Under the pieces are notes generated by a model. That model was not told the DNA's origin, did not search any database, and worked only from the letters and a program-made list of their open reading frames with translations. From the NCBI GenBank assembly GCA_945903305.1, contig CAMDOA010000006.1, positions 1 through 64,000 on the forward strand: DNA of 64,000 nucleotides, given 5' to 3'. The stretch's first letter is position 1. Each line of letters starts with the position of its first letter. The stretch is from Chitinophaga pinensis. GTDB lineage: Bacteria > Bacteroidota > Bacteroidia > Chitinophagales > UBA10324. Shown here one piece after another: positions 4,192-25,600 of the stretch. The translations under genes were made by a program, and so were the position numbers.

Positions 4192-6072
4192 TTATCCATG
4201 ATGTGTTGTTTCTCCTGGTCGCATTGGAACTGTTTGCGGAATAAAATCTTCGCCATCTTTTCCATAATCATAAGGCCCGCGATGAACTGTTGGAATCGGT
4301 CCATCCCAGTTACCATGACCTGGATTAATTGGTGTTGTCCATTCAATAGTATTTGCCTTCCATGGATTTAATTCAGTCATTTTCTTGCCGCGATACATGC
4401 TGTACAGGTAATTAAAAACAAAAAGCAATTGAGCTAGGAAAACAACAATAGCAGCAATGGTGATGAATTCACTTAATGCCCCGAATTTATTGAACGATTC
4501 AAAAGCTCCATGTGAATAGTAGCGGCGAGGTACACCTGCCATTCCCTGATAGTGCATTGGCCAGAAAATACAGTACGAGCCCACAAAAGTTATCCAGAAA
4601 TGGATGAATCCCATTGTGCGGTTCATGAATCGACCAAACATTTTAGGAAACCAATGATACACACCGGCAAACATGCCAAAGAAAGCAGCAACTCCCATTA
4701 CAATATGGAAATGCGCTACTATAAAATAAGTGTCATGTAACTGAATGTCAATAGCAGAATTACCTAAAAATATTCCTGTTAATCCACCTGATATAAAGAG
4801 CGAGACAAACCCGACAGAAAACATCATTGCAGGGGTGTATCGAATATTTGCCCGCCACATGGTAGTTATCCAATTGAAAACCTTTATAGCTGATGGAATA
4901 GCAATTAACAAAGTTAAAAACACGAACACAGAACCCACAAATGGATTTAAACCTGTAACAAACATGTGATGCGCCCAAACAAAAAATGCAAGTGCTGCAA
5001 TGGCTAACATGGAAAGTATCATAGCTCGATACCCGAAAATTGGTTTGCGCGAATTCACTGCTAACACTTCAGATACAATTCCGAAAGCAGGAAGAATGAC
5101 AATGTAAACTTCAGGGTGACCAAGGAACCAGAATAAGTGCTGGTACAAAATAGGGTTTCCGCCTTCATGAGGCATAGCTCCTATTCCACTCATGTAAATT
5201 TTATCGAGATAAAAACTTGTTCCCATTGAACGATCAAACATTAAAAGAATGGCTGCTCCTAAAAGCACAGGGAAAGAAAGTAAACCGAGTATGGCAGTGA
5301 TTAACAATGCCCAAATAGTTAGCGGCAATTTTGCCATTGACATTCCCTTGGCCCGCAAGTTTAGAATAGTAGTAATGTAATTTAAACCGCCTAACAAACT
5401 TGAGACAATGAAAAACGACATGCTGACTAACCATAAATCTGCCCCTGTTTCTGATCCAACAGATGCTTCTCTTATAGCACTAAGCGGTGGATAGAAAACC
5501 CAACTTACTCCTGCAGCACCACTTGGAACAAAAAATGAAATGAACATTACAAGACCTGCTAAAAAGAAAAACCAGTATGAAAGCATATTTAAAACCGGCG
5601 ATGCCATATCACGAGCACCAATCTGAAGAGGTATTAAAAGATTGGCAAATGTTCCGCTTAAACCTGCAGTCAAAACAAAGAATACGAGAATGGTACCATG
5701 CATAGTTATTAGCATGTTATAAAAATCAGGAGTCATAACTCCATTTGGCGCCCACTTATCGCCAAAAATTGCACCTATAAAGTGAAGAGGCACATCAGGA
5801 AAACCCAATTGCATTCTGAAAATATTAGAAAGCCCGCCACCAATAATTGCCCAGAATATTCCTGTAATTAAAAATTGCTTGCCAATCATTTTATGATCGG
5901 TGCTGAAAATATAAGTATGAATGAAATTCTTTTTATTCCGATCGCTATCATGGTGCCCATGATCTTCCTCAAATCGAATTACCCCTTCGGTATCCTGATA
6001 ATGAACATGATCAGTAATGGTAGCACCTTTTGGATGTTCATGATGCTCATGATGAATATCTTTTTCGCTCAT
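4192..6072 (-). CDS. ctaD: Cytochrome c oxidase subunit I
   Basis: 626-aa, FWFLGHPEVYIVILP (cross-linked Tyr, A-type), VWAHHMF, IQLHDTYFIVAHFHIVMG heme/CuB ligands. Confidence 0.97.
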   Translation of the reverse strand: MSEKDIHHEHHEHPKGATITDHVHYQDTEGVIRFEEDHGHHDSDRNKKNFIHTYIFSTDHKMIGKQFLITGIFWAIIGGGLSNIFRMQLGFPDVPLHFIGAIFGDKWAPNGVMTPDFYNMLITMHGTILVFFVLTAGLSGTFANLLIPLQIGARDMASPVLNMLSYWFFFLAGLVMFISFFVPSGAAGVSWVFYPPLSAIREASVGSETGADLWLVSMSFFIVSSLLGGLNYITTILNLRAKGMSMAKLPLTIWALLITAILGLLSFPVLLGAAILLMFDRSMGTSFYLDKIYMSGIGAMPHEGGNPILYQHLFWFLGHPEVYIVILPAFGIVSEVLAVNSRKPIFGYRAMILSMLAIAALAFFVWAHHMFVTGLNPFVGSVFVFLTLLIAIPSAIKVFNWITTMWRANIRYTPAMMFSVGFVSLFISGGLTGIFLGNSAIDIQLHDTYFIVAHFHIVMGVAAFFGMFAGVYHWFPKMFGRFMNRTMGFIHFWITFVGSYCIFWPMHYQGMAGVPRRYYSHGAFESFNKFGALSEFITIAAIVVFLAQLLFVFNYLYSMYRGKKMTELNPWKANTIEWTTPINPGHGNWDGPIPTVHRGPYDYGKDGEDFIPQTVPMRPGETTHHG

Positions 6073-6082
6073 CGCTTAATTT

Positions 6083-7129
6083 TTAATGATTTGAATGTTC
6101 GCTTTTTTTCTTTTCGTCACCTTCCATTTTTGCCAATGATCCAATTTTCTTTTCTTCATCTGTGCCTTTTATTGCAAGTTCAAAAAAAGATTTTTGGGTT
6201 TTCAACCAAGCTTCGTGTTGCGTTTTAGTATCAACATAAACCATCATTTTCATTGCAGAGTGCCCTTTACCACATAAATAATCGCAGCACATTTCATAAT
6301 CAAATGCTGGGTTTCCGGTTATCTTCCTCATTTCATCAGTTGTAATGGTTGGTGTGAATTTGAAGTGTGTTGGAAGACCTGGCATAGCATCCATTTTTAT
6401 TCTGAAATGGTTTAAACCAACATTATGAATTACATCGCGTGCGCCAATTTTTATCAGGTATTCTTTGTTCACCTCAAAGTGCAAATCAGACGGCATGAGA
6501 TCATCCAATCCTGTACTATCAGTGAAATCAATCCCAACTGAATTTGTTTCATCAATCAATTTCCAATTATTTGTTCCTAATTTCCCATCCGGTCCTTCGT
6601 ATCGCACTAACCAGTTAAATTGCTTTCCAGTAATTTCAACAACTCTTGCATTATCAGAAGCAGGGCCTGTAATTCTAAACCAATAGTATAATCCAACAAC
6701 AACAAGAATAGTTAAGGCAATTGCAGGCACAATTGTCCAAATCATTTCAAGCTTGTTATTCTCAGGATAATAAAACCCAAGTTTTCCTTTTTTACCATGA
6801 TACTTCCAGGCAAAATATCCTAACGCCACTTGTGTGAGTACAAAAACAATTCCTGTTAAAATCAAAGTGATATTAAACATGCTGTCAATCCAATGACCAT
6901 GTTCTGAAGCCGATACTGGAAGAAACAATGGAAGGTAATGGTAGGTACTCCAAACTATTCCAACTAAAAACACAACAGTGAATATGTACCAAAGTACTCC
7001 GTTAATTTTATCGGTATCTAATTCAGCATCATCGCCTCTGAGAATATTTATGTATTCATTGGCTTTCGAAATCTGAACTACCAGAATGCCAATGAGGAGT
7101 AAGGCTGCTATTACTAAGTATGTTGTCAT
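6083..7129 (-). CDS. ctaC: Cytochrome c oxidase subunit II
   Basis: CuA motif region DVIHNVGLNHFRIKMDAMPG ... CCDYLCGKGHSAM; N-terminal TM hairpin. Confidence 0.93.
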   Translation of the reverse strand: MTTYLVIAALLLIGILVVQISKANEYINILRGDDAELDTDKINGVLWYIFTVVFLVGIVWSTYHYLPLFLPVSASEHGHWIDSMFNITLILTGIVFVLTQVALGYFAWKYHGKKGKLGFYYPENNKLEMIWTIVPAIALTILVVVGLYYWFRITGPASDNARVVEITGKQFNWLVRYEGPDGKLGTNNWKLIDETNSVGIDFTDSTGLDDLMPSDLHFEVNKEYLIKIGARDVIHNVGLNHFRIKMDAMPGLPTHFKFTPTITTDEMRKITGNPAFDYEMCCDYLCGKGHSAMKMMVYVDTKTQHEAWLKTQKSFFELAIKGTDEEKKIGSLAKMEGDEKKKSEHSNH

Positions 7130-7153
7130 TGCAAGTTCTTTTTCTCAGTCAGT

Positions 7154-8335
7154 TTAAAGGGAATTATTAATACTCTCTTGTAAAAATGGATGATTCTTTG
7201 GAACCAGTGGTGCTTTTGCCAATGAAGAAAAAACCACATAAAGCATCATGCCAATAAACAAGCAAGGCAATCCTATTTCAAGAAAACCAAAGCCATTATT
7301 ATCTCCAACGGTGGCTGGCATTATCATTAAATAAAAATCAATGAAATGACCAACAATAATTATACATGCCACAAGCACTAAACGACTCATGCTTCTTTTT
7401 GCATCGCGAGACATGAGTAATAAAAATGGTAGCACAAAATTCAATACAAAAATTCCGTAGAACAATGGCTTATAATGACCATATCTGTGTTGGAAATAAA
7501 TAGTTTCTTCCGGAATGTTTGCATACCAGATTAACATGAACTGGCAGAAGGTTACATAAGTCCAGAAAATGCTGAAAGCAAACATCATGATTCCGAGGTT
7601 ATGCAAATGATTCACATTTACTTCTTTCAAATATCCTTGCTTCTTTAAGTAAATGGTGAATAATGTGATGACTGCAATACTTGTAACCCAGAAACTTGCG
7701 AATGAATACCAGCCATACATGGTGCTGTACCAGTGCGGGTCTAATGACATTAACCAATCCCATGCTGTTACTAAAATATATACTGCGAAGAATGGAATGA
7801 ACACTGAAGCAATTACTAAACTTCGCTTGTACATGGAGGTATCACCTGCAGCCATTGTATCTTCTTTCAATGATGTTTTTCGAAGAAGTATCGTACAGAT
7901 TACTAAAGCGCCAACAAAAAAAGCAAAACGAACAAAAAAGAATGGAAGATTTAAATAAGGTTGTTTGCCTTTTAAAATAGGGTCATGCTCCATTGCATCG
8001 TGATGTGTCCAATGATATAAATTTCCATGACCGGCAATTAACACCAATAATAATATTATCGCCGATACCGGCATCCATTGCGAAATGGCTTCAGGTACTC
8101 TTTTAAACACAACTGAAAATCCACCCCATGCAAGGTAAACGGCAGCAATAAAAAATGCAGCCCCCATTCCGATGCCCATAAAGAACACGCTATCTAAAAG
8201 GAGGTTTGCCCAAACACGGTTTATTTCGTCTCCACTATAAACAACAAAGCCTCCTGCTAAAGCAGCAGCACCAATTAGCATTAATACTATGCTTATGGTT
8301 TTTAGTCGCGATGTAAAATTAAAAGTCTCGTTCAT
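7154..8335 (-). CDS. actF: Alternative complex III subunit ActF (quinol:cytochrome c oxidoreductase membrane subunit)
   Basis: 393-aa, ~10 TM; last gene of the act set directly upstream of coxB; family resemblance to ActF. Confidence 0.87.
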   Translation of the reverse strand: MNETFNFTSRLKTISIVLMLIGAAALAGGFVVYSGDEINRVWANLLLDSVFFMGIGMGAAFFIAAVYLAWGGFSVVFKRVPEAISQWMPVSAIILLLVLIAGHGNLYHWTHHDAMEHDPILKGKQPYLNLPFFFVRFAFFVGALVICTILLRKTSLKEDTMAAGDTSMYKRSLVIASVFIPFFAVYILVTAWDWLMSLDPHWYSTMYGWYSFASFWVTSIAVITLFTIYLKKQGYLKEVNVNHLHNLGIMMFAFSIFWTYVTFCQFMLIWYANIPEETIYFQHRYGHYKPLFYGIFVLNFVLPFLLLMSRDAKRSMSRLVLVACIIIVGHFIDFYLMIMPATVGDNNGFGFLEIGLPCLFIGMMLYVVFSSLAKAPLVPKNHPFLQESINNSL

Positions 8336-8357
8336 TGCAGCGTTTAATTTTCAGAGT

Positions 8358-9017
8358 TTATATTTTTTTTGTTGAATCAGTTACAGCAGCTGTTCCAGTT
8401 AAAACTTTGCGGTAATCATCCTGCATGCTTCGTACATATGAAATTACTTTCCATATTTCGAGTCTATCTAATTGCGAGGTGTATGAACCCATTAAATTTT
8501 TTCCGAAGTGAACAGAAAAATACATTTTACCTTCAGGCAACGCTAAAATTGCATCGGTGAAATAAGATGGAGGAGGCGGAAACTTGCTTGTTACATTATC
8601 GCCTACAACAATATGCCCCGAACCTTTTCCATCAGTTCCATGACAGATGGCACAATAAATATTAAATAATCCTTTTCCTTCGCCTAAAATTTCAGGCGTT
8701 GTGGTTAACGGGTTTTTTACATTCGTTCCGGCAATTTCGTAATCCTCAGGTGTATTGGAATAATGAAATGGCATAAACGCACTTTCATTACCGACAATAC
8801 CCTGATAAATTGGTATAGTACCGACTACCGGCTTTTGCGCATTCATACTGTCAGGAAAAATATTATTCTCAAGGTATGTTTCGTAAGCTACCGGATGCGC
8901 CATATCAGGCATGTACTCGCGACCGGGAGTTCTGCGTGGTTCATTGCTACAAGCACTTTGCAATAACCAAACAAACAAAACCAAACCTGCTGTTACTATT
9001 GATGACCTCTTTATCAT
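8358..9017 (-). CDS. actE: Alternative complex III subunit ActE, lipoprotein mono-heme cytochrome c
   Basis: Lipobox-like LLQSAC at N-terminus; one CxxCH motif (YCAICHGTDGKGSG); position in act operon. Confidence 0.92.
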   Translation of the reverse strand: MIKRSSIVTAGLVLFVWLLQSACSNEPRRTPGREYMPDMAHPVAYETYLENNIFPDSMNAQKPVVGTIPIYQGIVGNESAFMPFHYSNTPEDYEIAGTNVKNPLTTTPEILGEGKGLFNIYCAICHGTDGKGSGHIVVGDNVTSKFPPPPSYFTDAILALPEGKMYFSVHFGKNLMGSYTSQLDRLEIWKVISYVRSMQDDYRKVLTGTAAVTDSTKKI

Positions 9018-9037
9018 GATTCTTTTTTCGAAATCAA

Positions 9038-9574
9038 TTAATAATGTCTGCTTAATTCTCGTTCCTTTATTTCTTCAGCTCCTGATGATTGAAGCATTTC
9101 CTTCATCTTTCCAATTTCTTCTTCAGTAGTTTTTTTACTGATTCTGAATACCACCGCAAATTTATCGTCGGTGGTGCGTTCATCCAATGTTTCACGAATT
9201 CTACCCGGATATAAACCTGAACGAAGCAAGAATGTTAGTGTCATTCCGATAGAAGCACTCAACACGGTAAATTCAAATAAGATTGGAATAAATGCAGGAA
9301 ATGAAAAGTGTGGTTTGCCTCCAAAATTCAATGGCCAGTCAGAAGTGAAAGACCAGGTCATGAATGAAAGAGCAATAGCAAGTCCGCTAAATCCATAAAT
9401 GAATCCTGTAATGTGAAGGCGCGATTCATTTAACCCCAATGCATCATCTAAACCATGCACTGCAAATGGTGATACCACATCATAAACTTCCAGATGACTT
9501 TCGCGCATTGCTTTTACGCCATCAATCATTTTGTCTTCGTCGCTGTATAATCCTACTAAAAATTTATTTCGCAT
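9038..9574 (-). CDS. actD: Alternative complex III subunit ActD (DUF3341 family)
   Basis: 178-aa, two TM segments, synteny between actC and actE. Confidence 0.88.
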   Translation of the reverse strand: MRNKFLVGLYSDEDKMIDGVKAMRESHLEVYDVVSPFAVHGLDDALGLNESRLHITGFIYGFSGLAIALSFMTWSFTSDWPLNFGGKPHFSFPAFIPILFEFTVLSASIGMTLTFLLRSGLYPGRIRETLDERTTDDKFAVVFRISKKTTEEEIGKMKEMLQSSGAEEIKERELSRHY

Positions 9575-9577
9575 GGT

Positions 9578-10999
9578 TTAATGACCTTGAGTTGTTCCGG
9601 ATAAATCGTTATGACTATGTGCATGAGCAGCAGCAGCTTTTTTCTGTGCATCACCTGAAATTCTTAAAATGTGTTTTGTTTCAGCCATTGCTATTACAGG
9701 CATTGTCTTCGCAAACAGCATAAATGCAGTGAGAAACAATCCAACAGTTCCGGCAAAAATACTTATCTCAACATAAGTCGGAGTATAGTATGACCAAGCC
9801 GAGGGAAGGAAATCGCGGTGAATGGAAGTAACGATAATTACAAAACGCTCGAACCACATTCCGCAATTGATAATGATTGACATGAAGAAAGTAAACCAAA
9901 CACTGCGGCGCAATGAACGAACCCAGAATAATTGCGGACTGATAACATTGCAGGTCATCATTCCCCAATAGGCCCACCAGTAAGGGCCAAGTGCTCTGTT
10001 TGAAAAAGCATATTGCTCGTAAATATTTCCGCTGTACCAAGCAACAAATAATTCAGTGATGTAAGCTGACCCTACAATAGAGCCGGTTAACACAATGATT
10101 TTATTCATTGATTCAATGTGTTCCAAAGTAATATACTCTTGCAGGTTCATTACTTTTCTTGCTACCAACATCAAGGTCAATACCATAGCGAATCCAGAGA
10201 AAATTGCACCAGCAACAAAGTATGGAGGAAAGATGGTAGTATGCCAACCAGGAATAACTGAAGTGGCGAAGTCAAAAGATACTATGGTGTGAACTGAAAG
10301 TACAAGTGGAGTTGAAATACCAGCAAGTACTAATGATAATGCTTCGTGTCGCTGCCAGTGTTTTGCTGAACCCGTCCATCCGAAACTCAGAACGCCGTAA
10401 ATAAATTTTGATAATTTCTTTTTTGCACGATCACGAACTGTTGCTAAATCAGGAATTAATCCGGTGTACCAGAATAAAAGTGAAACAGTAAAGTATGTAG
10501 AGATGGCGAACACATCCCACATTAAAGGTGAGTTGTAGTTTGGCCAAACCGGTCCGCGAGTATTAGGGTATGGAAGGTTGTAAAAAATTAACCAAACACG
10601 ACCCATGTGAAAAATCGGAAACAAACCTGCACATATCACAGCGAAAATGGTCATGGCTTCTGCTGCGCGATTAATAGCCATGCGCCATTTCTGACGAAAC
10701 AATAATAAAATTGCAGAGATCAAAGTTCCTGCGTGACCAATACCAATCCACCAAACGAAATTGGTGATATCCCATCCCCAGTCCACCGTTCTGTTCAATC
10801 CCCACTCTCCTATTCCAAACCAAACTGTCCAACCAATCATGAACAAACCCCATGTCATTAACAACGCGGTGAATGTTATGGTAATCATGAAAAGTCTGGT
10901 GGGCTTGCTTTCTATAGGGCGACAGATATCTTCAGTAATCTGATGATAATTTTTGTTGCCGTAAATAAGCGGGGCCCTTACGGCCGATTCTGCGTGCAT
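9578..10999 (-). CDS. actC: Alternative complex III subunit ActC (NrfD-like quinol-interacting membrane subunit)
   Basis: 473-aa, multi-TM NrfD/PsrC-like protein, e.g. WGWDITNFVWWIGIGHAGTLISAILLLFRQKWR; synteny. Confidence 0.93.
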   Translation of the reverse strand: MHAESAVRAPLIYGNKNYHQITEDICRPIESKPTRLFMITITFTALLMTWGLFMIGWTVWFGIGEWGLNRTVDWGWDITNFVWWIGIGHAGTLISAILLLFRQKWRMAINRAAEAMTIFAVICAGLFPIFHMGRVWLIFYNLPYPNTRGPVWPNYNSPLMWDVFAISTYFTVSLLFWYTGLIPDLATVRDRAKKKLSKFIYGVLSFGWTGSAKHWQRHEALSLVLAGISTPLVLSVHTIVSFDFATSVIPGWHTTIFPPYFVAGAIFSGFAMVLTLMLVARKVMNLQEYITLEHIESMNKIIVLTGSIVGSAYITELFVAWYSGNIYEQYAFSNRALGPYWWAYWGMMTCNVISPQLFWVRSLRRSVWFTFFMSIIINCGMWFERFVIIVTSIHRDFLPSAWSYYTPTYVEISIFAGTVGLFLTAFMLFAKTMPVIAMAETKHILRISGDAQKKAAAAHAHSHNDLSGTTQGH

Positions 11000-11020
11000 A
11001 ATTTTTCTTTAGTTATCTGA

Positions 11021-14000
11021 TTAAGCCATGTTTTCGTTATTCCTAACTTTAACCATGTAACCGATTGATGGTTTCACATGCAATTCTGCAAGCACATGGT
11101 AATTGCGTTCATCTTCACGGGTTTTTGCAACCGCTGTTTCTTTATTATTTACATCACCAAAAACAATCGCATCAGCAGGACATGCAGATTGACATGCAGT
11201 TTTAGCTTCGCCATCACCCAATGGTCGGTCTTGTTTTTTTGCAGTCAATTTTGCATCCTGTAATTTCTGCACACAGAAACTGCATTTTTCAATCACACCT
11301 CTTGAGCGAACAGTTACATCAGGATTCAACACCATTCGGGTTAAATCGTCAATCATCATGGCGACACCTTCACTCTTATTGTAAGTATTCCAAGGGAAAC
11401 TATCTGCTGTTGTATAATCGAACCAATTGAAACGGCGAACTTTATATGGGCAGTTATTTGCGCAATACCTGGTTCCGATACAACGGTTGTAAGTCATTTG
11501 ATTTAATCCTTCGCTGCTGTGATTAGTAGCTGCAACCGGACAAACATTTTCGCAAGGAGCATTTTCGCAATGCTGACAAAGCATTGGTTGGTGAACCACT
11601 TCAATATCTTCCCAATCTTTTACATCGTCGTATTGATTACCAAGTCCAATGGCATTTGAATGAGATTCCTTGGTTACTCTTTCTTTATCACCTGCAAATG
11701 AATAGTAACGGTCAATGCGAATCCAGTGCATTTCGTGAACACGACGAACTTCATCTTTACCCACTACTGGAACATTATTCTCTGCTGAACAAGCAACCTG
11801 GCAAGCACCACATCCGATACATGAATTCAAATCAATGTTCATTCCCCACCGCAACCCTTCATACTTATGAATTGTTTGAGGATACAGCGTTACTCCATCT
11901 ATCTTTTCAAATTCTTCGGAAGAATGATTTCCTGATTTTGGATTTTTCTTGTATTCTGATAAAGTGGTTTCTTGTAAAATATTCCTTCCTTCAATAGTCC
12001 CATGGGTTTGCGTAATAGCTAATTCATATTTATTGCCTGTTGGTTTTACACTTACACTTGAATTGGAATAATTCATTGTATCAACATTCATTGTAACAAA
12101 TGGATATACATTTTTTCCAACTCCGTTTCCGGCACGGCCACATTTTTCTCTACCCAATCCTACAGCAACTGCTATTGTATTATTTGCCATTCCGGGTTGA
12201 AGAACTACAGGTAATTCCAATTTGAAATCTCCTGCACTTACTTCAATCATATCACCTTCAACCAAATTATTTTCTTTACCATAAGGAACAGAAATCATGG
12301 CAACTGTATCCCAAACCACTTTTGTAATAGGATCCGGATTTTCAAGCAACCAAGGATTGTTTGCATACTTTCCATTTCCTAAACCAACTGATTCAAATAT
12401 CAAGAGCTCCATTCCATCCGACTTCTTTCCACCTAAACCAGAAGCAGCAGCATTTACATCGCCTGCAAATGCAAAAGTGGTTGTTGCAGTAGCCGCTTTT
12501 TCATAAACACCTACACGAACACAATTATCCCAGAATGATTGAAAACTTAATTCCTGAGTTTGAGTTGGGAAAACATATTTCTCCCAATTTTTCTTAATAA
12601 GATTTGAATAATCATCGGCACTATCCATCCATTTCAATAAACTATCAGCTGCCTGACGAGTATTAAAAATCGGATTGATACAAGGTTGGCTCAAACTGTA
12701 TTTTCCTAATTTTACTTCAGCATCATTCCAACTTTCTAAGAAGTGATTATCCGGTAAATGATATTTTACAAAGGAAGTGGTTTCATCATTTCTATCATTG
12801 AAAGAAATTGTGAGCCCAATTTTTTTCAATGCCTCACCGAATTTTTTTCCTTTCGAAAAACTGTAAACCGGATTGGTATTGTAAATGATTAACGCATCAA
12901 CTGAACCTGCTTCCATTTCGGTGAGTAAATCAGAAAAGTCTTTGTCATTTCCCTGCGCAACATTGGAATAATTATCTAAATCAATGGTATTACCGTAGCT
13001 GCCAAGAATATCATTGATAGCATTAATTAATATTTGTGAGTTGGTATTGTTTGAACCGCATACTACTAATGAGGCACCTTTATTCGCCCACATTTCAGCA
13101 GCTGCTTTGTTCAACGATTTGGCAGCTTTATCAGAAACTTTTCCTCCGGTAACTGCAGTTTTTCCTGCAAAACCTGCTATCATATTATAGAGTGCAATTA
13201 TTGCATCTCCTTCTTCGGATGGTTTTATTGCTATTCGTTTATCAGCATTACTACCGGTTAATGACACATTGGATTCAAACTGATAATGGCGCGACATTTC
13301 TGCTTTTGCCTTAGATACTTTTCTGTTGGTTACATATTGCTTGGTGAACTCAATAGGAGATATCCAGGTGCCTAAAAAATCGGCAGCGAATGAAACTATC
13401 ACCTTTGCCCTATCGAAATTGTAACCCGGAATTAATTTTTTACCAAAACTTTTTTCATTGGCAGAAATAATTCCGGAATTTGACATGGGTTCGAAAACTA
13501 TATGCCTTGTATTACCATAGTATGTTCCGAATTCAGCAATCAAATTTTTTGTTGAAGGACTTAAAACTGTAGATGAAAGTATGCGAATGTTTCCTCCCTT
13601 TGTTTTTATTGCAGCTAACTGATTTTTAATATCTGAATCTGCTGCCGACCATTCAATAATTTTCCCTTCTTTTTCAGGTGCAGATGTTCTTGCTTTATCA
13701 TATAAAGAAAGTATAGAAGCTTGTGCACGGGCACTTGTGCCTCCTTTGGTAATAGTTGAATGTGAATTGCCTTCAATTTTAATTGGTCGGCCATCCCTTG
13801 TTTTTACCAATATGCTGCAATAGTCGCTGCCATCAGCATAAGTAGATGCATAATAATTAGCCAATCCCGGAACAATTTCTTCCGGCTTAATAATATATGG
13901 AATTGCCTGGCGAACCGGAATTTTACAACTTGCGGCAACAGTAGCTGCTGTTACACTGAACCCAAGCATTTTTAAAAAATCGCGGCGAGCTCTTGGTTTT

Positions 14001-14128
14001 TGAACAAAGTTGCTGTTAAAAATTTCCTCTATCGGAAGTTCTTCAGCAAACTCTTTGTCGCGCTCATGAATAAACTCCGGCGTTTCTTCTAATTCAGCGA
14101 GACCTTTCCAATATGATTTATTTTCCAT
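11021..14128 (-). CDS. actB: Alternative complex III subunit ActB (molybdopterin-oxidoreductase-like domain fused to Fe-S ferredoxin domain)
   Basis: 1035-aa; Tat-like RARRDFLKMLGFSVTAATVAASC; C-terminal Cys clusters CIGCGACQVAC, CQHCENAPCENVC, CIGTRYCANNC, CSFC...CQSAC. Confidence 0.95.
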   Translation of the reverse strand: MENKSYWKGLAELEETPEFIHERDKEFAEELPIEEIFNSNFVQKPRARRDFLKMLGFSVTAATVAASCKIPVRQAIPYIIKPEEIVPGLANYYASTYADGSDYCSILVKTRDGRPIKIEGNSHSTITKGGTSARAQASILSLYDKARTSAPEKEGKIIEWSAADSDIKNQLAAIKTKGGNIRILSSTVLSPSTKNLIAEFGTYYGNTRHIVFEPMSNSGIISANEKSFGKKLIPGYNFDRAKVIVSFAADFLGTWISPIEFTKQYVTNRKVSKAKAEMSRHYQFESNVSLTGSNADKRIAIKPSEEGDAIIALYNMIAGFAGKTAVTGGKVSDKAAKSLNKAAAEMWANKGASLVVCGSNNTNSQILINAINDILGSYGNTIDLDNYSNVAQGNDKDFSDLLTEMEAGSVDALIIYNTNPVYSFSKGKKFGEALKKIGLTISFNDRNDETTSFVKYHLPDNHFLESWNDAEVKLGKYSLSQPCINPIFNTRQAADSLLKWMDSADDYSNLIKKNWEKYVFPTQTQELSFQSFWDNCVRVGVYEKAATATTTFAFAGDVNAAASGLGGKKSDGMELLIFESVGLGNGKYANNPWLLENPDPITKVVWDTVAMISVPYGKENNLVEGDMIEVSAGDFKLELPVVLQPGMANNTIAVAVGLGREKCGRAGNGVGKNVYPFVTMNVDTMNYSNSSVSVKPTGNKYELAITQTHGTIEGRNILQETTLSEYKKNPKSGNHSSEEFEKIDGVTLYPQTIHKYEGLRWGMNIDLNSCIGCGACQVACSAENNVPVVGKDEVRRVHEMHWIRIDRYYSFAGDKERVTKESHSNAIGLGNQYDDVKDWEDIEVVHQPMLCQHCENAPCENVCPVAATNHSSEGLNQMTYNRCIGTRYCANNCPYKVRRFNWFDYTTADSFPWNTYNKSEGVAMMIDDLTRMVLNPDVTVRSRGVIEKCSFCVQKLQDAKLTAKKQDRPLGDGEAKTACQSACPADAIVFGDVNNKETAVAKTREDERNYHVLAELHVKPSIGYMVKVRNNENMA

Positions 14129-14161
14129 CCGGTGTTTTTTTACAACTCGAGTTTGAAAATT

Positions 14162-15409
14162 TTAGTAATGACATTTTTGACATTCCGTTCCACCTAAATC
14201 ACCTCCTGTTACATGTTTTATTTTTCCGGTTTTCAGTTCATCATGCAAGCGTGTAAAGAGTGGTTCGTAGTATTTATTTTGTTCGAAAGTTGTTCCTGTG
14301 TTTCGGTGACAGTTAACACACCAGCCCATTGACAAACTTGAAAATTGCTTCACCTCATCCATGGTTTCAATTGGACCATGACAAGTTTGACAAGCAACCT
14401 CTCCTGCTTTCACATGCTGAGAGTGATTGAAGTAAACATGATCAGGTAGGTTGTGAATTTTTACCCACTTGATTGGTTGGTTATTATCAAAAGCAGCATA
14501 AATTTTTGCAATTTCAGCCGTGCCTGTAATTGGCCCTTCCTTAATTGCTTTGTGGCAATTCATACAAACACTTACTGAAGGTATTGAAGCCACTTTACTT
14601 TTCTCAGCACCAGAGTGACAATACAAACAATTGATTTGATTTTGTCCGGCGTGAATTTTATGGGAGAATTTAATTGGCTGAATGGGTTGGTAATCGCGGC
14701 TGCGACCTAATCCCTGCCCTTCTTTCACCATCCAGTATCCGAGAAACATCACACACATAAATAACATTAAAGCAACATTTCCTTTTGAGAATATGGCTTT
14801 GAAGAACGGGCGCTCTTCAGGTATTTCATCTCCAATTTTTTCTCCTGCGTAATGGCGAAGATTATTGTTGATTCGGAATATTAAAAAACTTATTCCCATT
14901 AACACAACCACTACCACCCACAGAATTCCGGTATAACTATCAGCATTTTCTTCATCAGCTCCGGCACTCCCTGCAGTTGGGGCAGTAGCGGCAACCGGAA
15001 CTTTATTACTCGCATCATTAATATAGGCAATGATGGATTTTATATCATCGTCAGTAAAAGAAAGGAACTGAGTCATGCTCGCTTTCTTGTATTCTTCGAA
15101 AATGGCAATGGCATCTTTATCGCCCGAAGCGCGGAGGGCAACATTGTTTCGAATCCAGCTAATTAACCAAGCTTCAGATCTTTTTTTATCAATATTTTTT
15201 AACGATGGGCCAACTAATACCTGATCTTTATCAGGAGTAACATGGCACGAACGACAGTTGTTTGCATACAATTTTTGACCGTCGGCTACACTTACGGCTG
15301 CATTTGAAACTGAACTGTTAAAATAAAAAACGAAGGAAAAAAGAAATACTATTTTGGCCGAAACCCTTGTTAACTCAGCAATCCGCGAGGGCTTGTAGTA
15401 AAATGTCAT
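14162..15409 (-). CDS. actA: Alternative complex III subunit ActA, multiheme cytochrome c
   Basis: ORF extends to 15478, but the ATG at 15409 (MTFYYKPSRI..., then a hydrophobic segment) is the more likely start. Six CxxCH motifs: CRSCH, CLYCH, CMNCH, CQTCH, CVNCH, CQKCH. Confidence 0.92.
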   Translation of the reverse strand: MTFYYKPSRIAELTRVSAKIVFLFSFVFYFNSSVSNAAVSVADGQKLYANNCRSCHVTPDKDQVLVGPSLKNIDKKRSEAWLISWIRNNVALRASGDKDAIAIFEEYKKASMTQFLSFTDDDIKSIIAYINDASNKVPVAATAPTAGSAGADEENADSYTGILWVVVVVLMGISFLIFRINNNLRHYAGEKIGDEIPEERPFFKAIFSKGNVALMLFMCVMFLGYWMVKEGQGLGRSRDYQPIQPIKFSHKIHAGQNQINCLYCHSGAEKSKVASIPSVSVCMNCHKAIKEGPITGTAEIAKIYAAFDNNQPIKWVKIHNLPDHVYFNHSQHVKAGEVACQTCHGPIETMDEVKQFSSLSMGWCVNCHRNTGTTFEQNKYYEPLFTRLHDELKTGKIKHVTGGDLGGTECQKCHY

Positions 15410-15435
15410 GCGGGCTATTTTTTTTTGAATGGTGG

Positions 15436-15443
15436 CAAAAATA
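15436..15443 (-). promoter_or_regulatory. Putative Bacteroidota -7 box (TATTTTTG on minus strand) upstream of the act-cox operon
   Basis: Minus strand reads TATTTTTG, matching TAnnTTTG, 26 nt upstream of the actA ATG. Confidence 0.45.
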
Positions 15444-15751
15444 TACAGGCAAGTGAAGTTTTTACATTCTTGTGACAAAATAATTTAACACAACCATTTT
15501 TAGTGGAGTGTTTCATACCAAATGCACATTCAAAATTTTATTTACTCTGTTCCCTACATTCCTTTGTAACACTTGATGAATAAGGGTTTCAGGCAATTTT
15601 AAAAAATATTAAAGTTTAAATTTTCACTATTTTTCCGATTCGTTTTTTTAACTAATAAATTTTTACTTTAGAATAATTCTAAGATTTTAGAAGCCGGTTT
15701 CAATAATTTGCACGGGCTTTGTCTTTATCCTTGCATTCAACAAGAAAATTT

Positions 15752-16923: not shown

Positions 16924-19467
16924 TTAATTTTTATTCCGATACAAATTCGCATCCACCACTTCCACCATTTTATCAATCTCCATTTCTTCATCTAAAAAAC
17001 TGGCGATGGTTTCGGCGGCTTCCTGCGGGTTGGCAATCACCTCTTTGTAATTCAGTTTTAAAACTTCAGCACTGGGAGTTCGTGCAATCCACGCATCGGC
17101 CTTTTCTAATTGCTTAGTAAAAGCTTCGGCTAATGCAATTGGATATGCGTCCTGCCGCACTGCACGATTGTGCCCGAGCATAACCTGTTGCGAGCGCAGC
17201 ACTTCATCCATATCGCGCTGCATGAAAATAATTTTGTAGTTGTATGCAGCAGGTAAATTAGGGAGCAATGGTGCTACCACTTTTACTGCCTTGTCAACTG
17301 CTTCATTCATCCAACCATTATCGCGAAATAAACTTTTTACTTTTTCAAATTCGAGGTATCCTTTCGGATTGTTGGTGTCATTTGCACGAATGTTATCGGT
17401 GAGAATTTCTACTCCTCCTGCATTTAACATTTGCATAATCATGCTGGTGCCGGTGCGTGGCAATCCTGAAACGATTGTGATTGTGCCTTTTATGTTATCC
17501 ATAATAAACTGTTCGTGGTATTTTGCTTTTTCTGTATTGTGTAAATGGTCTCTGTAAATTTTTAACAGCCACTGATGCGTTTTTCGGTTTCCGTGCGATT
17601 GATTAATGACCACTCCAAATGCCATTGCTGAACTTTCATATTGTTTGAGATTATATAATGCTTCGCCCAAACAATAATGTGCTTGTGGCATGGCGTACAT
17701 TAATCCAATTGCAGCTAAAGATTCTTCTGCTGCCTGTTCATATTCTTTGGTGCGAAGCAATGAGCGTGCAATTCCTAAATGGGCCGAAGCATTGTTTGCG
17801 TCAATATCCAATGCGCGGTTATATGCCTGTTGTGCTTTCTCCCATTTTCCCAATCGCTGATATACTCTTCCTAACTCATTGTAGTAATATGGCAAGTGTG
17901 CCGAGCGCTGTTCAGCTTTCTCGAGCAATTCCATTGCTTTGCGTGGTTTGTTTTCAGCAATGAATAATCCTGCTTCCAGTAAATCGAGTCGAGCCAATTC
18001 AGCGGCTTCTGTTGTACGCAGTTTATCCATCAGCACGCGGCACTCTTCATTTTTATTCAATGCCATGTAACATTCATGCAGCGCCAAACCATACCGGAGT
18101 TTATCCATGTTCTCCGAAAATATTTTTTCGAGAATCACCATCGCCTCGCCGAATTTTTTCCGGTACATCAACACACGAGCTAAATAAAATTGTGATTCGT
18201 CGGTAATTTTTTTCAGTGCTTTCTCCTTGTCTTCGCCGGGTTTTTCTACATAACCCAATTCAATCAACTGATCCATTGCCGCTTTTGCCGCCCACGGATC
18301 TTCGCGCACATCGCCGGGCAACATGCCTGCATTGCCTTCTGTTACATTTTCCCAACTGTCAATAAAGGTTGGCTCAACTATTTTATTGAATGACTGCAAC
18401 AACGATTTACCAATCATATCTTTTCCAACCGGCAAACCAAAAAGTGTGAGAACAGTTGGAGCAATGTCTAACAAGGTTGCACCATATATCCGTTCATCTT
18501 TTTTTATATGCGGACCTTTCATGGTAAAAATTCCGAACGGCGCATGTTCAAATGCAGGCCCCGCAGGTTCTTTCGGAATTCTGTTCGGACGCAAATGATC
18601 AGAATGAAAACCATGATCGCTCATGATAATGACCGTAGTATCATCACCCGCCAACTGCAACATTCGTTCAAGCATCATGTCATGAAAACGATAAGCGCCC
18701 TGCACCACATCTTTATACAATTCATATAAATTATCCGGAATATTTTTTCGTTGCGGCGGATGAAATTTCATGAAGCCATGACAGAAATGATCAATGGCAT
18801 CGTAGTACACCGCCATGAAATCCCACTCGGTATTTTGCATTAACCAGGTGGCAGCGCCGTGAATGGAAGAACACTCAGCTAAAATTTTTGCAACCGATGA
18901 AAGATGTTTGTCTTTATCCTGATCAACTTTTAACGCTTCGGGAACAAACGGTAAAATGTGCGACAGCGTTAACTCGCCCGGATGCACGCGCCACTCGCTG
19001 ATGTGTTCCATTGCTTTCGGATGAATGCTTCCATCGGGCATTGGCCATGGCTCGCCATACTTGCTTTTTACTTTCTGAAAAAAATTTGAAACCATTACAC
19101 CGTTAATGGGCTCCGCAGGATTGCTTGGCCACCAACCAACAATATTTGATTTCAATCCTTTCTGACTTAACATGTTCCACAGCGCTTTCACTTTTCGTGA
19201 GCGTGATGACACCGGGCGAACACCCTGATTGTTAGCATCCGGTTCCACAAAACCAAGTATGCCATGTTCATCGGCAGTTTTTCCGGTTGCAATTGAAGTC
19301 CATAATATCGGAGAGAGCGGAGGGTCAAGAGTGGCGAGATTTCCCATCACTCCCTGCTCTACAAATTTGTTGAGCGTGGGCAATAAACCCGCATCGAGCA
19401 TGGGCGAAATAATTTTCCAGTCCGCTGCATCCCAACCAATGAGTAAAACTTTTTTTGCGAGCCTCAA
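16924..19467 (-). CDS. Three-part protein: alkaline phosphatase-superfamily (type I phosphodiesterase/sulfatase-like) + TPR + sulfotransferase domain
   Basis: 847-aa; metal-site motifs VLLIGWDAADW, PPLSPILWTSIATG, YYDAIDHFCHGF, IIMSDHGFHSD; central TPR-like helices (PYYYNELGRVYQRLGKWEKAQQAYNRALDID...); C-terminal P-loop-like ITIVSGLPRTGTSMIMQML and FMQRDMDEVLRSQQ. Confidence 0.88.
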   Translation of the reverse strand: MRLAKKVLLIGWDAADWKIISPMLDAGLLPTLNKFVEQGVMGNLATLDPPLSPILWTSIATGKTADEHGILGFVEPDANNQGVRPVSSRSRKVKALWNMLSQKGLKSNIVGWWPSNPAEPINGVMVSNFFQKVKSKYGEPWPMPDGSIHPKAMEHISEWRVHPGELTLSHILPFVPEALKVDQDKDKHLSSVAKILAECSSIHGAATWLMQNTEWDFMAVYYDAIDHFCHGFMKFHPPQRKNIPDNLYELYKDVVQGAYRFHDMMLERMLQLAGDDTTVIIMSDHGFHSDHLRPNRIPKEPAGPAFEHAPFGIFTMKGPHIKKDERIYGATLLDIAPTVLTLFGLPVGKDMIGKSLLQSFNKIVEPTFIDSWENVTEGNAGMLPGDVREDPWAAKAAMDQLIELGYVEKPGEDKEKALKKITDESQFYLARVLMYRKKFGEAMVILEKIFSENMDKLRYGLALHECYMALNKNEECRVLMDKLRTTEAAELARLDLLEAGLFIAENKPRKAMELLEKAEQRSAHLPYYYNELGRVYQRLGKWEKAQQAYNRALDIDANNASAHLGIARSLLRTKEYEQAAEESLAAIGLMYAMPQAHYCLGEALYNLKQYESSAMAFGVVINQSHGNRKTHQWLLKIYRDHLHNTEKAKYHEQFIMDNIKGTITIVSGLPRTGTSMIMQMLNAGGVEILTDNIRANDTNNPKGYLEFEKVKSLFRDNGWMNEAVDKAVKVVAPLLPNLPAAYNYKIIFMQRDMDEVLRSQQVMLGHNRAVRQDAYPIALAEAFTKQLEKADAWIARTPSAEVLKLNYKEVIANPQEAAETIASFLDEEMEIDKMVEVVDANLYRNKN

Positions 19468-19602
19468 GAAGGATTTTTGATTTTAGATTTTAGAATTAAG
19501 ATTTCTGTTCTTCTGAAAAAATTTCGCACTGAGCTACAGAGTTCACGGAGGGATTTCATTTTCAGGTTTTGATTTTTATTGTTGATTGCATTTTGCTAAT
19601 TG

Positions 19603-19809
19603 CTAATCGCTAATTTCCTTTTTCTGTTCCGTATTTTCTTCCGGCTTCGGTCTTTTATCTTCCAACTCTTTTCGCTTGCTCCTCCACATTTTTAATCCCA
19701 CATCACCAAGGGCAAGCAAGCCAAGCATACCTTCTTCGGGAATTTCAAATTTTTCGTTGTTCAAAAAAATTTGTTCTTCGGGTTTTGTATCTGAATTTTT
19801 TTCAGTCAT
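19603..19809 (-). CDS. Small charged protein of unknown function, possibly linked to the downstream AP-TPR-sulfotransferase gene
   Basis: 68-aa ORF, same strand, about 135 bp upstream; EEGMLGLLALGDVGLKMWRSKRKE core with charged ends. Short, so coding status is uncertain. Confidence 0.5.
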   Translation of the reverse strand: MTEKNSDTKPEEQIFLNNEKFEIPEEGMLGLLALGDVGLKMWRSKRKELEDKRPKPEENTEQKKEISD

Positions 19810-19970
19810 CTGCTTTTTGATAATGCTGCAATGTATGAAGAAGAATAAATTATTGCGATGATAAAAATTATATAGGGAGAATAATTTTAAATACTACCTT
19901 TCAGAAAAGTTTTTAGTCTTCACGCATGAAGAAAGATTCCTTCGCAAAAAAATTAGCCGGTTAAATAGCT

Positions 19971-22331
19971 GTGAGTTCTGCATTTCTTGCAGCACAGCAG
20001 GAATGTGATGCACAGATAGTTTATACGAATGTGGAGCCGGATTCATTGATTGGTTTTGGAAATACTTATGAGAGCTACTCTTTAGATTTGAATAATGATG
20101 GTGTTACTGATTTTTTATTTGTGAATGATGAAGAAATTTATAGTTCTACTTCGTTTACATTCCCATATAATTTCAATGTTTTTTTAAGCCCTGGTATAAA
20201 TAAAATTGCAGCGACACCTGTTTCAAGCGGCAGTTTCAATATTGAAGTGTTAATGTCCGGAGATACAATTGACGCAAACCAAAATTGGCACAACAATAAT
20301 TTATTAGGTCCGGGTTGGCAGGGTAATTACCCAATAAATGGTTTTATTGGATTAGAATTTATAAAAAACAGCCAAACTCATTATGGCTGGGCACGATTGT
20401 ATTCGCCGAATGGTGCTGACTATTTAGTTGTAAAAGATTTTGCTTACAATACAATTGCTAATGCACCAATTTTGGCCGGTGAAACATCTTGTAATACATC
20501 GGTGCCACCACCTTCAATAAATTGGAATGGTATATCATTAGAAAGTATTGGCAATGGAACTCCTCAATGGTTTTTAAATGGTGATACACTTTCAGGGTAT
20601 AATGCAAATAATATTTCGCCACCTTTAACAGGAACTTTTCATGTTATTTACTCTGATTCTTTGGGTTGTAATTCTCAATCTCAAATATTTTATTACATAA
20701 GTTGTGATAGTGTTGTTTCTACTATTGTTGCAAGTGCTGATACATTGTGTTTTGGAATGAGTTTGACACTTGAAGCTTTTCCTGCTAACCAATATTTTTA
20801 TTATCAATGGCAAAACAATAATTTAAATTATGGCGATAATAGCCTTGGAGATTTTTCATTGCAAACAAACATTTTAGATAGCATAAATAATTTTAGTGTA
20901 ATAATTTCTTACCCTGAAATGGGCTGCGCTGATACCTCCCTCACAATTAATGTATATGAATTTCCAGAAATAATTCCAACAATAACAATTTCCGGCGATA
21001 CTTTAATTTCGTCCACATCACAAAGTTATTTGTGGCTCAATTATCAAAATTTACCTGTTGATTCTGTGCAGTTTTTTTTGCCGCCAAGCACTGGAATTTA
21101 CAGCGTATTCGTTACAAATTATTTTGGATGTTATGGTTGGTCGGAAATTGTTTATTATGACCAATGCTGGTATATTCCCAATACAGTTCAAAATCTTGGC
21201 GACTCTATATATTGCCCGGGTGCACCATTTAATGATTCACTCTTAATCAATTATAATTCAGATTATTTATATCAATGGAATATGAATGGTTCACCGGTAA
21301 CAGGTGCCGATTCAAATATTTTTTATGCAGTGTTACCTGGGAATTATAATGTACAAATTACAGATACAACCAGCGGATGCATTGTCATTTCAAATTCTAT
21401 TCATCTTGAATATTCCATATCTCCTATTCCATTTATACTGCAGTCGATTGACACCTTATTTACTTATTCAGGCATGAATGGATATCAATGGTATTTAAAT
21501 TCACAACCAATTTCATGGGCAACAAACTGGTTTTATCTTTTCAATCAACCAGGGAATTATTCAGTTGAAACTTATAATGAAATTAATTGTTCAGCAACTT
21601 CTCAAGAATATTTTTTCAGTAATTGTTTTATTGCCATTCCACAGATTCAAAACTCAAATGGAAATTTGTTATGTGAAGGAGAATCCACCACTTTATTTTT
21701 AATCGCTTCGGCAGGAAACAATGTTCAATGGTTTATGAATGGCGACAGCATAATTGGAGCCACCACTTATTCAACAGTAGTTTATACTTCCGGAAATTAT
21801 TCTGCAATTGTCAGCAATGGTTCGTTTGGATGTTCCGCTGTATCTGATACCATTTTAATAATAGTTTACCAAACCACCACTCCTGTTATTACACAAAATG
21901 GTGATACGCTTTTTTCCTCAGTGCCATTTGGAAATCATTGGTACTATAATTCTGTGGAACTGGCCGGAATAGCAGCAACCCATTACTTTTTAATTCCAAG
22001 CCAAAATGGAACTTATTATGTTGCGAATACCGATCTGAATGGTTGTGAAACTATTTCTGCTCCATTTATTTTTTCAACAACCAGCATCGCCCCAAATGTT
22101 ATTGAGCCTTATGAATTAATAGCTGATGGAAAGGAAATTATTTTCAAAATAAAAAACATTAACCTGATGGGTGGTGAGTTAACAATTTATAATGTTCTAA
22201 GTAAAGAAATTTATTCTACTCAAATAAAAAATGAAATAATGAGATTTAAGTTGAATGAAGCTAGTGGAATGTATTTTATAATGATTGAAAATGATCGTTT
22301 TTTAAGAATTGAAAAAATAATTTTGAATTAA
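19971..22331 (+). CDS. T9SS-type secreted protein (C-terminal sorting domain); N-terminus interrupted by an in-frame TAA
   Basis: 786-aa open frame from GTG; C-terminus ...LTIYNVLSKEIYSTQIKN...SGMYFIMIENDRFLRIEKIILN is T9SS type A-like. The natural ATG appears to be at 19926, with TAA at 19962-19964 between it and the open frame. Confidence 0.75.
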   Translation: MSSAFLAAQQECDAQIVYTNVEPDSLIGFGNTYESYSLDLNNDGVTDFLFVNDEEIYSSTSFTFPYNFNVFLSPGINKIAATPVSSGSFNIEVLMSGDTIDANQNWHNNNLLGPGWQGNYPINGFIGLEFIKNSQTHYGWARLYSPNGADYLVVKDFAYNTIANAPILAGETSCNTSVPPPSINWNGISLESIGNGTPQWFLNGDTLSGYNANNISPPLTGTFHVIYSDSLGCNSQSQIFYYISCDSVVSTIVASADTLCFGMSLTLEAFPANQYFYYQWQNNNLNYGDNSLGDFSLQTNILDSINNFSVIISYPEMGCADTSLTINVYEFPEIIPTITISGDTLISSTSQSYLWLNYQNLPVDSVQFFLPPSTGIYSVFVTNYFGCYGWSEIVYYDQCWYIPNTVQNLGDSIYCPGAPFNDSLLINYNSDYLYQWNMNGSPVTGADSNIFYAVLPGNYNVQITDTTSGCIVISNSIHLEYSISPIPFILQSIDTLFTYSGMNGYQWYLNSQPISWATNWFYLFNQPGNYSVETYNEINCSATSQEYFFSNCFIAIPQIQNSNGNLLCEGESTTLFLIASAGNNVQWFMNGDSIIGATTYSTVVYTSGNYSAIVSNGSFGCSAVSDTILIIVYQTTTPVITQNGDTLFSSVPFGNHWYYNSVELAGIAATHYFLIPSQNGTYYVANTDLNGCETISAPFIFSTTSIAPNVIEPYELIADGKEIIFKIKNINLMGGELTIYNVLSKEIYSTQIKNEIMRFKLNEASGMYFIMIENDRFLRIEKIILN

Positions 22332-22332
22332 G

Positions 22333-23667
22333 ATGAAAAAAGATTCGTTTGAAAAAAAATTAGCTGCATATATTGCTATGTCATCAGCATTTCTTGCTGT
22401 GCATTCAAATGCGAATGCGCAAATTATTTATACAGATGTGAATCCTGATTTTGTATCGAGTAATGGTTCTTATTATCTTGATTTGAATAATGATGGAATT
22501 GTTGATTTTAATTTGAATGCCTCTATGAGTGCATCATATTCATATTATCCTGGTCAGTTTTGGTCATCTCATTATGAAATTTCTTTATCGATACAAGGCA
22601 TTGGATATAATAAAGTAAAAAACGACCTTCTTCAATTCCCTTTGGCATTAAACGCCGGAGACACTATTATTCCCTCAATCAGCCAGTTAGGTAATGGTCA
22701 AATTTTATATCATCACCAGCATAGTGAACTGTTCAGCATTGGACCATTCGGCACTAATGTTTCATATTCTTTTGACAGCATTGCAGGAAACTGGACAAAT
22801 CAAAATGATAGATATTTAGGTTTAAAAATTAATGTTGGCGGGAATAATTATTACGGATGGGCAAGATTAGTAATAGATGGCTACCAGGTCACCTTGAAAG
22901 ATTATGCCTGTTTTATTTTTCCTGATTATCCGATTATTGCAGGAGAAACAAGCTGTAATTTCTATCAACCAACTTTATTATCGAGCCCATTAGATTCTAT
23001 TTGTGTTGGAGAAATAGTAACGCTGCAAATTCTAAATTATCAGGGCGATACAATACATTGGTACAGAAATGGAATTTTACTGCCTCTTTATTCATCTCAT
23101 ATTTCAGTTAATCAATCAGGAACTTATTATGCTGAAATAATCTATAACTATTGTCCATCCGAAACCTCAAACACTATTTCAATAACAAATGTTGGTACAC
23201 CAAATATTCCAATAATCAATCTGCAAAATGATTCATTATTTACAATTGAGTCTCCTGTTTTTCATTACCAATGGTTTTATGGAACTTATCCCATTCCGAA
23301 TTCTGATAATTATTTTTTTGTTCCCCAATGGACAGGTTTTTATAAAGTGAAAGTCACAAATCAGAATAATTGTTCACGCACATCACCTGTTTTTAATTAT
23401 GTTCTGACAAACGCAAACCCAGCTTCTTATTTATCTGATATTTTAATTTTCACCATTGAACAAAATCATTTGCAGCTTATTTCGCTGCCTGAACAATTAG
23501 TTCGCGGAGAAATAAAAATATTTGACATCAAGGGAAAATTATTGATTGAACAAAAACTAATGAATTCTTCCGAACAAATTCCACTAACAAATTTCTCTTC
23601 CGGAATTTATTTTTTCGAAATCAGAAAAGATGAATTGGTTGTGCGGAAAAAATTCTTTGTGAATTAA
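22333..23667 (+). CDS. T9SS-type secreted protein, paralog of the preceding gene
   Basis: 444-aa; MKKDSFEKKLAAYIAMSSAFLAVHSNANAQ signal peptide; C-terminus IKIFDIKGKLLIEQKL...SSGIYFFEIRKDELVVRKKFFVN. Confidence 0.85.
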   Translation: MKKDSFEKKLAAYIAMSSAFLAVHSNANAQIIYTDVNPDFVSSNGSYYLDLNNDGIVDFNLNASMSASYSYYPGQFWSSHYEISLSIQGIGYNKVKNDLLQFPLALNAGDTIIPSISQLGNGQILYHHQHSELFSIGPFGTNVSYSFDSIAGNWTNQNDRYLGLKINVGGNNYYGWARLVIDGYQVTLKDYACFIFPDYPIIAGETSCNFYQPTLLSSPLDSICVGEIVTLQILNYQGDTIHWYRNGILLPLYSSHISVNQSGTYYAEIIYNYCPSETSNTISITNVGTPNIPIINLQNDSLFTIESPVFHYQWFYGTYPIPNSDNYFFVPQWTGFYKVKVTNQNNCSRTSPVFNYVLTNANPASYLSDILIFTIEQNHLQLISLPEQLVRGEIKIFDIKGKLLIEQKLMNSSEQIPLTNFSSGIYFFEIRKDELVVRKKFFVN

Positions 23668-23740: not shown

Positions 23741-23986
23741 TTATTTCTGCAATCCTTCAACCAACACGGTAACTTTATTATCTGCCACTTCAACAAAACC
23801 ACCAAGCACTTTATAGTTGGTAGTTGTTTTATCGTGGTCAACCTTAATGTTGCCTTCTTTCAAACTGCTGATCATGGGCGCATGGTGATTCAAAACCTGA
23901 AAACTTCCATCAGTTCCCTGCATTTGAACCGCTGTTGCTTCGCCGTTGAATATTTTACTTTCCGGAGTTAGGATTTCAAGTTTCAT
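23741..23986 (-). CDS. atpC: ATP synthase epsilon subunit
   Basis: 81-aa MKLEILTPESKIFNGEATAVQMQGTDGSFQVLNHHAPMISSLKEG. Confidence 0.95.
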   Translation of the reverse strand: MKLEILTPESKIFNGEATAVQMQGTDGSFQVLNHHAPMISSLKEGNIKVDHDKTTTNYKVLGGFVEVADNKVTVLVEGLQK

Positions 23987-24004
23987 TCGAATAGTTGTTA
24001 GGTT

Positions 24005-25600
<1,596 letters not shown>

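Follow-up and report, generated by a model that had tools for sequence, protein, structure and literature searches.

A gene cassette that recurs across several phyla, a conclusion that is well supported, brings together (i) an enzyme in which a phosphodiesterase domain, a TPR superhelix and a sulfotransferase domain occupy one chain, (ii) a small ORF, and (iii) surface proteins of a family for which the name "YGW proteins" was coined in this analysis. Its members in the window, i.e., the whole stretch of 64,000 nucleotides that was analysed, are listed in Table 1. With a probability that we place somewhat short of even, it is proposed that a cytosolic, tag-guided enzyme modifies, and most likely sulfates, the YGW proteins before their export; such a tag-directed modification is suggested by the intact PAPS site, the predicted location of the enzyme in the cytosol, its TPR superhelix and the positions at which the tag is encountered. 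No published description of the architecture or of the cassette was found in a literature search that covered only a minority of subscription papers.

Table 1. Coordinates and supporting evidence of the cassette features in the window
Feature	Position	Strand	Evidence or remark
NPP/AP-TPR-sulfotransferase enzyme, 847 aa, TTG start	16924..19467	-	ORF call, Pfam, AF2, alignment
AP-superfamily NPP-type phosphodiesterase domain, residues 1-360	18388..19467	-	Pfam PF01663, Foldseek, invariant active site
TPR superhelix, residues ~400-655	17503..18270	-	Pfam TPR models, AF2 helices, Foldseek
Sulfotransferase domain, residues 656-847; P-loop GLPRTGTS 668-675, 3'-phosphate site R751/S759	16927..17502	-	PF13469, PF00685, alignment
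68-aa small ORF, putative free-standing tag peptide	19603..19809	-	Conserved, adjacent, dN/dS <1
Tag core PEEGMLGLLALGDVGLKMWRSKRKE, residues 24-48 of small ORF	19666..19740	-	Alignment of ~60 homologues
Divergent intergenic region, enzyme/tag genes versus YGW genes	19810..19925	.	Position only
YGW surface protein 1: kkLxxY signal, YGW domain, weak T9SS tail	19926..22331	+	In-frame TAA at codon 13
YGW surface protein 2, intact, T9SS type A C-terminal domain	22333..23667	+	YGW model, TIGR04183, AF2

Both reverse-strand ORFs, of 847 and 68 aa, are as the earlier note had described them, and the presence of an AP-type hydrolase, TPRs and a sulfotransferase in one chain is borne out by Pfam, where all matches exceed the curated cut-offs: Phosphodiest (PF01663) covers residues 7-288 (E=7.8e-27; 95.2 bits for a cut-off of 23), several TPR models span residues ~510-630, and the C-terminus matches Sulfotransfer_3 (PF13469, E=1.6e-11) and Sulfotransfer_1 (PF00685, E=6.6e-7). 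Across 67 full-length homologues, the NPP-type metal and catalytic residues D13, S52, D226, H230, D284, H285 and H308 (window numbering) are invariant, so that the two-metal ligand set and the nucleophile of the NPP class are complete; the nucleophile, taken for a Thr in the earlier note, aligns as Ser52. Equally invariant in these homologues are the P-loop residues G668, P670, R671, G673, T674 and S675 together with the pair R751/S759, and profiles and alignment agree that both the 5'-phosphosulfate loop and the 3'-phosphate site of PAPS sulfotransferases are kept, in line with the PAPS-binding P-loop that had been recognised from the sequence; the further polar residues D691, R694, D697, N700, E706 and K729 of this domain do not vary either. 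An AF2 model of the homologue at locus L060, based on the 67-sequence alignment, reached a mean pLDDT of 86.8, and Foldseek matched the N-terminal domain to Xac NPP, NPP1 and NPP3, and the TPR part to CTPR and to the TPR domains of O-GlcNAc transferase.

That the AP domain is structurally nearest to nucleotide pyrophosphatases/phosphodiesterases, with a fully invariant active site, would also fit an enzyme whose sulfotransferase domain does no more than bind PAPS or PAP as a sensor or regulator, the NPP domain being the working part, with PAPS/PAP itself or some nucleotide-linked modification on the YGW proteins as its target. We regard this as quite improbable, as a pure sensor need not keep both PAPS-binding sites along with the six polar residues named above. 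Regarding location, no signal peptide is apparent, the chain entering the first AP beta-strand as early as residue ~6, from which the enzyme is predicted to be apparently cytosolic, as had been supposed earlier. The genome of the window encodes APS kinase, the source of PAPS; as a discriminating marker, this gene was discarded as uninformative since it is found in 52/61 relatives with or without the enzyme.

A scan of GTDB genomes yielded 79 enzyme loci, with taxon names taken from record titles and many of the loci belonging to MAGs, spanning Bacteroidota, Gammaproteobacteria (Methylococcales), Hydrogenophilales, Nitrospirae, deltaproteobacteria, Acidobacteria and Planctomycetes; full-length homologues occur in Bacteroidota, Proteobacteria, Nitrospirae, Acidobacteria and Planctomycetes. 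The architecture is nonetheless rare, being present in 2/297 Bacteroidota genomes sampled across the phylum. At six loci, the AP-TPR gene lacks the sulfotransferase domain: in four of them (L053, L061, L062, L074) a separate sulfotransferase gene follows directly, and in the other two (L069, L073) the contig ends less than 1 kb away. The fusion would thus join functionally linked domains, and this gene arrangement argues that the domains of the enzyme work together. Diverged second copies of the enzyme, each with a tag ORF just upstream, were observed in G016 (C269:5506-7989, 35% identity) and in G037 (C339:12751-15249, 28%), where the second copy stands in tandem with the first, and the Hydrogenophilales locus L070 carries two enzyme copies (6007-8856 and 10005-12797) as well as two YGW genes with different PEP-like tails.

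The small ORF, for which a role as partner of the enzyme had been put forward in the earlier note, lies immediately upstream of the enzyme gene, and often overlaps its start, in 61/79 loci, and in two others (L056 and L060) its core is part of the enzyme chain, at the N-terminus. An alignment of some 60 homologues gives the conserved core GSLGLLALGxxGLxxWRxxR, and dN/dS against close relatives is 0.13-0.31; judged on these grounds, the small ORF is a real gene under purifying selection, and a chance or annotation artefact is ruled out by its conservation, its adjacency to the enzyme and its dN/dS. A role as partner is supported, and the three points on which the earlier reading had been staked, namely profile matches, active-site ligands and conservation of the small ORF, were all found in favour of the enzyme and the ORF. 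With a sulfotransferase gene next to an ORF of some 60 aa, the layout recalls raxX-raxST (PMC6637879), by analogy with which the small ORF could itself be the sulfated and exported peptide. We consider this very improbable: the conserved core contains no Tyr, no Ser or Thr stands within GMLGLLALGDVGLKMWR in the window, and two enzymes contain the same element at their N-terminus. As a RaxX-like sulfated peptide, the small ORF was rejected for want of an acceptor residue in the core.

On the other side of the intergenic region, the YGW genes encode proteins with the N-terminal motif kkLxxYSAxAGA and a domain ending in ...HYGWaRlDV...tIKDYAYn..., the motif being essentially confined to the family among 1521 larger ORFs of the loci. 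The YGW domain matched no Pfam family. YGW protein 2 matches the YGW model at E=9.1e-54 and the T9SS type A model TIGR04183 above its cut-off (1.6e-8), and its AF2 model shows a beta-rich fold (mean pLDDT 89.7), to which no PDB match was found at E<=0.001; for YGW protein 1, TIGR04183 remains below the cut-off (19971-22331, 18.6 bits). The TAA of YGW protein 1 (19962-19964) falls exactly at the conserved Tyr codon, where the homologues of L033 and L034 are open, and points to recent gene decay or, alternatively, to an error in the assembly. This Tyr13 is probably located within the cleaved signal peptide. Tyr174 of the YGW domain is Tyr in 67/70 aligned sequences (96%) and aromatic in all 70, with Phe or Trp at this position in some Acidobacterial copies, and the alignment of the domain revealed no obvious universal acceptor residue. 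At L057, the gene directly after the enzyme (8593-9819, +) encodes a protein with an LxxYS-type N-terminus and a T9SS-like tail, without the YGW domain, which is possibly a second client type.

By HMM search, YGW members are encoded no further than 6 kb from the enzyme in 68/79 loci, or about 65 when matches to the T9SS tail only are left out, and they constitute the sole neighbour family, the enzyme aside, that is conserved across clades; for 10/12 tested loci without a YGW neighbour, a YGW gene was found elsewhere in the genome. Among 61 relatives, 18 have the enzyme and YGW, 5 the enzyme only, 2 YGW only and 36 neither (Fisher p=4e-9), and across the 69 genomes of the genus to which Winogradskyella thalassocola belongs, the enzyme, the small ORF and an adjacent YGW gene occur in the same 8 (p ~1e-9 and ~1e-10), these p-values being indicative only as related genomes are not independent samples. 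Both YGW-only relatives are incomplete genomes, and neither the enzyme nor YGW is present in G001, of the same genus, or in G007, both of them family members with nearly complete genomes. Within the 69-genome genus, what is left of the enzyme C-terminus and of a YGW gene lies side by side in G421 (C163:26159-26985), consistent with a cassette that may be decaying jointly, and G389 has a divergent YGW match alone. Conversely, G037, G045 and G356 possess the enzyme and the tag with no detectable YGW gene. No other conserved neighbour naming a pathway was found, only clade-specific synteny. In the window, the cassette is flanked by genes of alternative complex III (molybdopterin/Fe-S protein and cytochrome c; 11021-15478, -) on one side and of ATP synthase epsilon/beta (23741-25540, -) on the other, an arrangement which seems to represent local synteny only.

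The core of the small ORF is not restricted to free-standing peptides. An HMM built solely from the free-standing small ORFs was run on the 1521 ORFs of at least 100 aa from the loci and on further YGW proteins elsewhere in the carrier genomes, and it matched only (i) YGW C-termini, (ii) the enzyme N-termini of L056 and L060, and (iii) longer versions of the small ORF. The core occurs in three settings, namely as a free peptide in T9SS genomes, as the enzyme N-terminus in the two cases, and, in other phyla, as a tail at the C-terminus of YGW proteins; in G359, an Acidobacterial genome, LGLLALGAxGLxxWRR-like tails close many of the YGW copies, some of these tails being interrupted by Pro, Asp or Glu. 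A tailed YGW protein and a free or fused tag never meet at one locus (0/53, versus 7/14 of the loci without a free tag; p=4e-6). Several loci (L078, L082, L102) show neither a free tag nor a tag-tailed YGW protein, and have IPTL-type tails instead; in these Nitrospirae and deltaproteobacterial MAGs, the YGW tails are IPTL-CTERM-like and exosortase-like matches are weak (1e-6 to 1e-9). The core is thus likely to be a recruitment tag. The earlier note had envisaged that a hydrolase and a sulfotransferase edit some sulfated or phosphorylated surface molecule in general; the neighbouring YGW proteins and the presence of the tag at YGW C-termini point to a protein client rather than to such a generic surface molecule.

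The company that the tag keeps in other phyla invites comparison with protein sorting. YGW-borne tags of Proteobacteria, Planctomycetes and Acidobacteria often score as PEP-CTERM, the genomes with tailed YGW proteins mostly carry an EpsH-type exosortase, and some free ORFs match PEP-CTERM-type models weakly, so the small ORF might descend from a detached PEP-CTERM sorting signal and the cassette might belong to an exosortase-like surface-sorting pathway. This seems unlikely to us: 7/8 free-tag genomes tested, including that of the window (G000), gave no exosortase match and the eighth (G446) a single weak one (6.5e-9), while of the two fused-tag genomes G354 has a weak match (6e-7) and G448 none; moreover, the ORF of the window matches neither PF07589 nor TIGR02595, and the small ORF has no signal peptide for entry into the periplasm. 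Among 30 relatives of the small ORF, 7 match PF07589 and 2 TIGR02595, all at E >0.005. The small ORF was accordingly rejected as a PEP-CTERM signal, profiles failing and exosortase being absent or weakly detected. The maximal means of 15-residue hydropathy windows overlap, at 0.7-1.7 for free, fused and Acidobacterial tags versus 1.4-2.0 for PEP/IPTL tails. The tag is short, rich in Leu, Ala and Gly, and PEP-CTERM-like, and its similarity in exosortase-bearing genomes could partly be convergence.

Glycans are frequent targets of AP and sulfotransferase domains, which lends itself to a different reading: stationed at the inner membrane face by the tag as an N-out/C-in anchor, the enzyme would sulfate the precursor of a surface glycan or lipid, and the YGW proteins would be surface lectins or matrix proteins with affinity for what has been sulfated. 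The tag does resemble a short membrane-associated, PEP-CTERM-like helix followed by Arg/Lys, it has been fused twice to the enzyme N-terminus, and YGW proteins of PEP-type genomes weakly match the flocculation protein PepA (E ~2e-6). Against this, the tag helix of the window is amphipathic and contains Asp and Lys, the conserved neighbours include no glycosyltransferase, polymerase or lipid gene, and in other phyla the tag is borne by the YGW clients themselves; we hold this reading to be rather unlikely.

Returning to tag-guided modification of the YGW proteins, we infer that the tag binds the TPR superhelix, that the YGW proteins are the substrates, that sulfation is the reaction and that the NPP domain has a part in it. 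Acting in the cytosol, the enzyme would reach the secreted, beta-rich YGW proteins ahead of export, and the short amphipathic tag GSLGLLALGxxGLxxWRxxR would unite enzyme and client, most likely via the TPR superhelix. In favour of this, the TPR domain of O-GlcNAc transferase, which that of the enzyme resembles, recruits protein clients. Against it, in the AF2 model of the natural tag-enzyme fusion of L060, the enzyme is confidently predicted and the tag appears as a loose, undocked helix, with nearly all of residues 1-47 at pLDDT <50. Where the YGW C-terminus is free for a tail of its own, the tag would be carried by the client; in Bacteroidota, the tag may have become a separate gene because the C-terminus of the client is there occupied by the T9SS signal, the tag being then supplied as a co-encoded peptide or as a fusion to the enzyme. 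The sulfotransferase domain would move sulfate from PAPS to the YGW client, and the NPP domain may process a phosphoester or nucleotide in the same pathway, either in PAPS/PAP turnover or on a prior phospho group. In its most general form, the idea is that a TPR-guided bifunctional phosphodiesterase-sulfotransferase may read a C-terminal tag on surface proteins and sulfate them while they are still in the cytosol, and that this tag survives as a trans-acting gene when another secretion signal takes over the client C-terminus; this extended version we put forward tentatively, as a doubtful proposition.

To our knowledge, bacterial protein sulfation is known from very few cases, for which the RaxST/RaxX pair is the standard. 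If correct, the proposal would add a tag-directed cytosolic system of sulfation, or of a related modification, acting on an unnamed surface-protein family in environmental bacteria of several phyla, and a recognition tag that is now on the client, now on the enzyme and now a gene of its own would offer an uncommon case in which the evolution of modular recognition can be put to the test. The cassette also pairs two groups that annotation would be expected to leave as "alkaline phosphatase family protein" and "T9SS/PEP-CTERM domain-containing protein".

Among known systems, RaxX/RaxST of Xanthomonas comprises a PAPS-type tyrosine sulfotransferase encoded beside a gene for a peptide of about 60 aa, the product of which is exported (PMC6637879). 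The cassette shares with it a PAPS-type sulfotransferase gene next to a small-peptide gene, and differs in that RaxST carries no fused NPP or TPR domain, that the peptide of the cassette has no conserved Tyr (the ORF of the window having no Tyr at all) and is apparently a tag rather than a substrate, and that a separate family of secreted proteins is linked to it. In the PEP-CTERM/exosortase (EpsH) system, surface proteins bear a C-terminal tag composed of a Leu/Ala/Gly helix with an Arg end, and a TPR protein is involved (PMC1569441). A short tag of this composition with its Arg end and a TPR protein are likewise present here, whereas the genomes with a free-standing tag have no exosortase or at most one weak match, the tag displays a W-R signature and occurs in trans or on the enzyme, and its partner is a predicted cytosolic NPP-TPR-sulfotransferase. 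Xac NPP, NPP1 and NPP3 resemble the N-terminal domain in fold and in the layout of metal ligands and nucleophile, but the enzyme of the cassette is predicted to be cytosolic, uses Ser as the putative nucleophile and is fused to TPR and sulfotransferase domains. Finally, O-GlcNAc transferase and SPINDLY likewise join a TPR superhelix to a group-transfer domain and have cytosolic protein clients, as proposed here; in the cassette, however, the transfer domain is a sulfotransferase and an NPP domain comes in addition.
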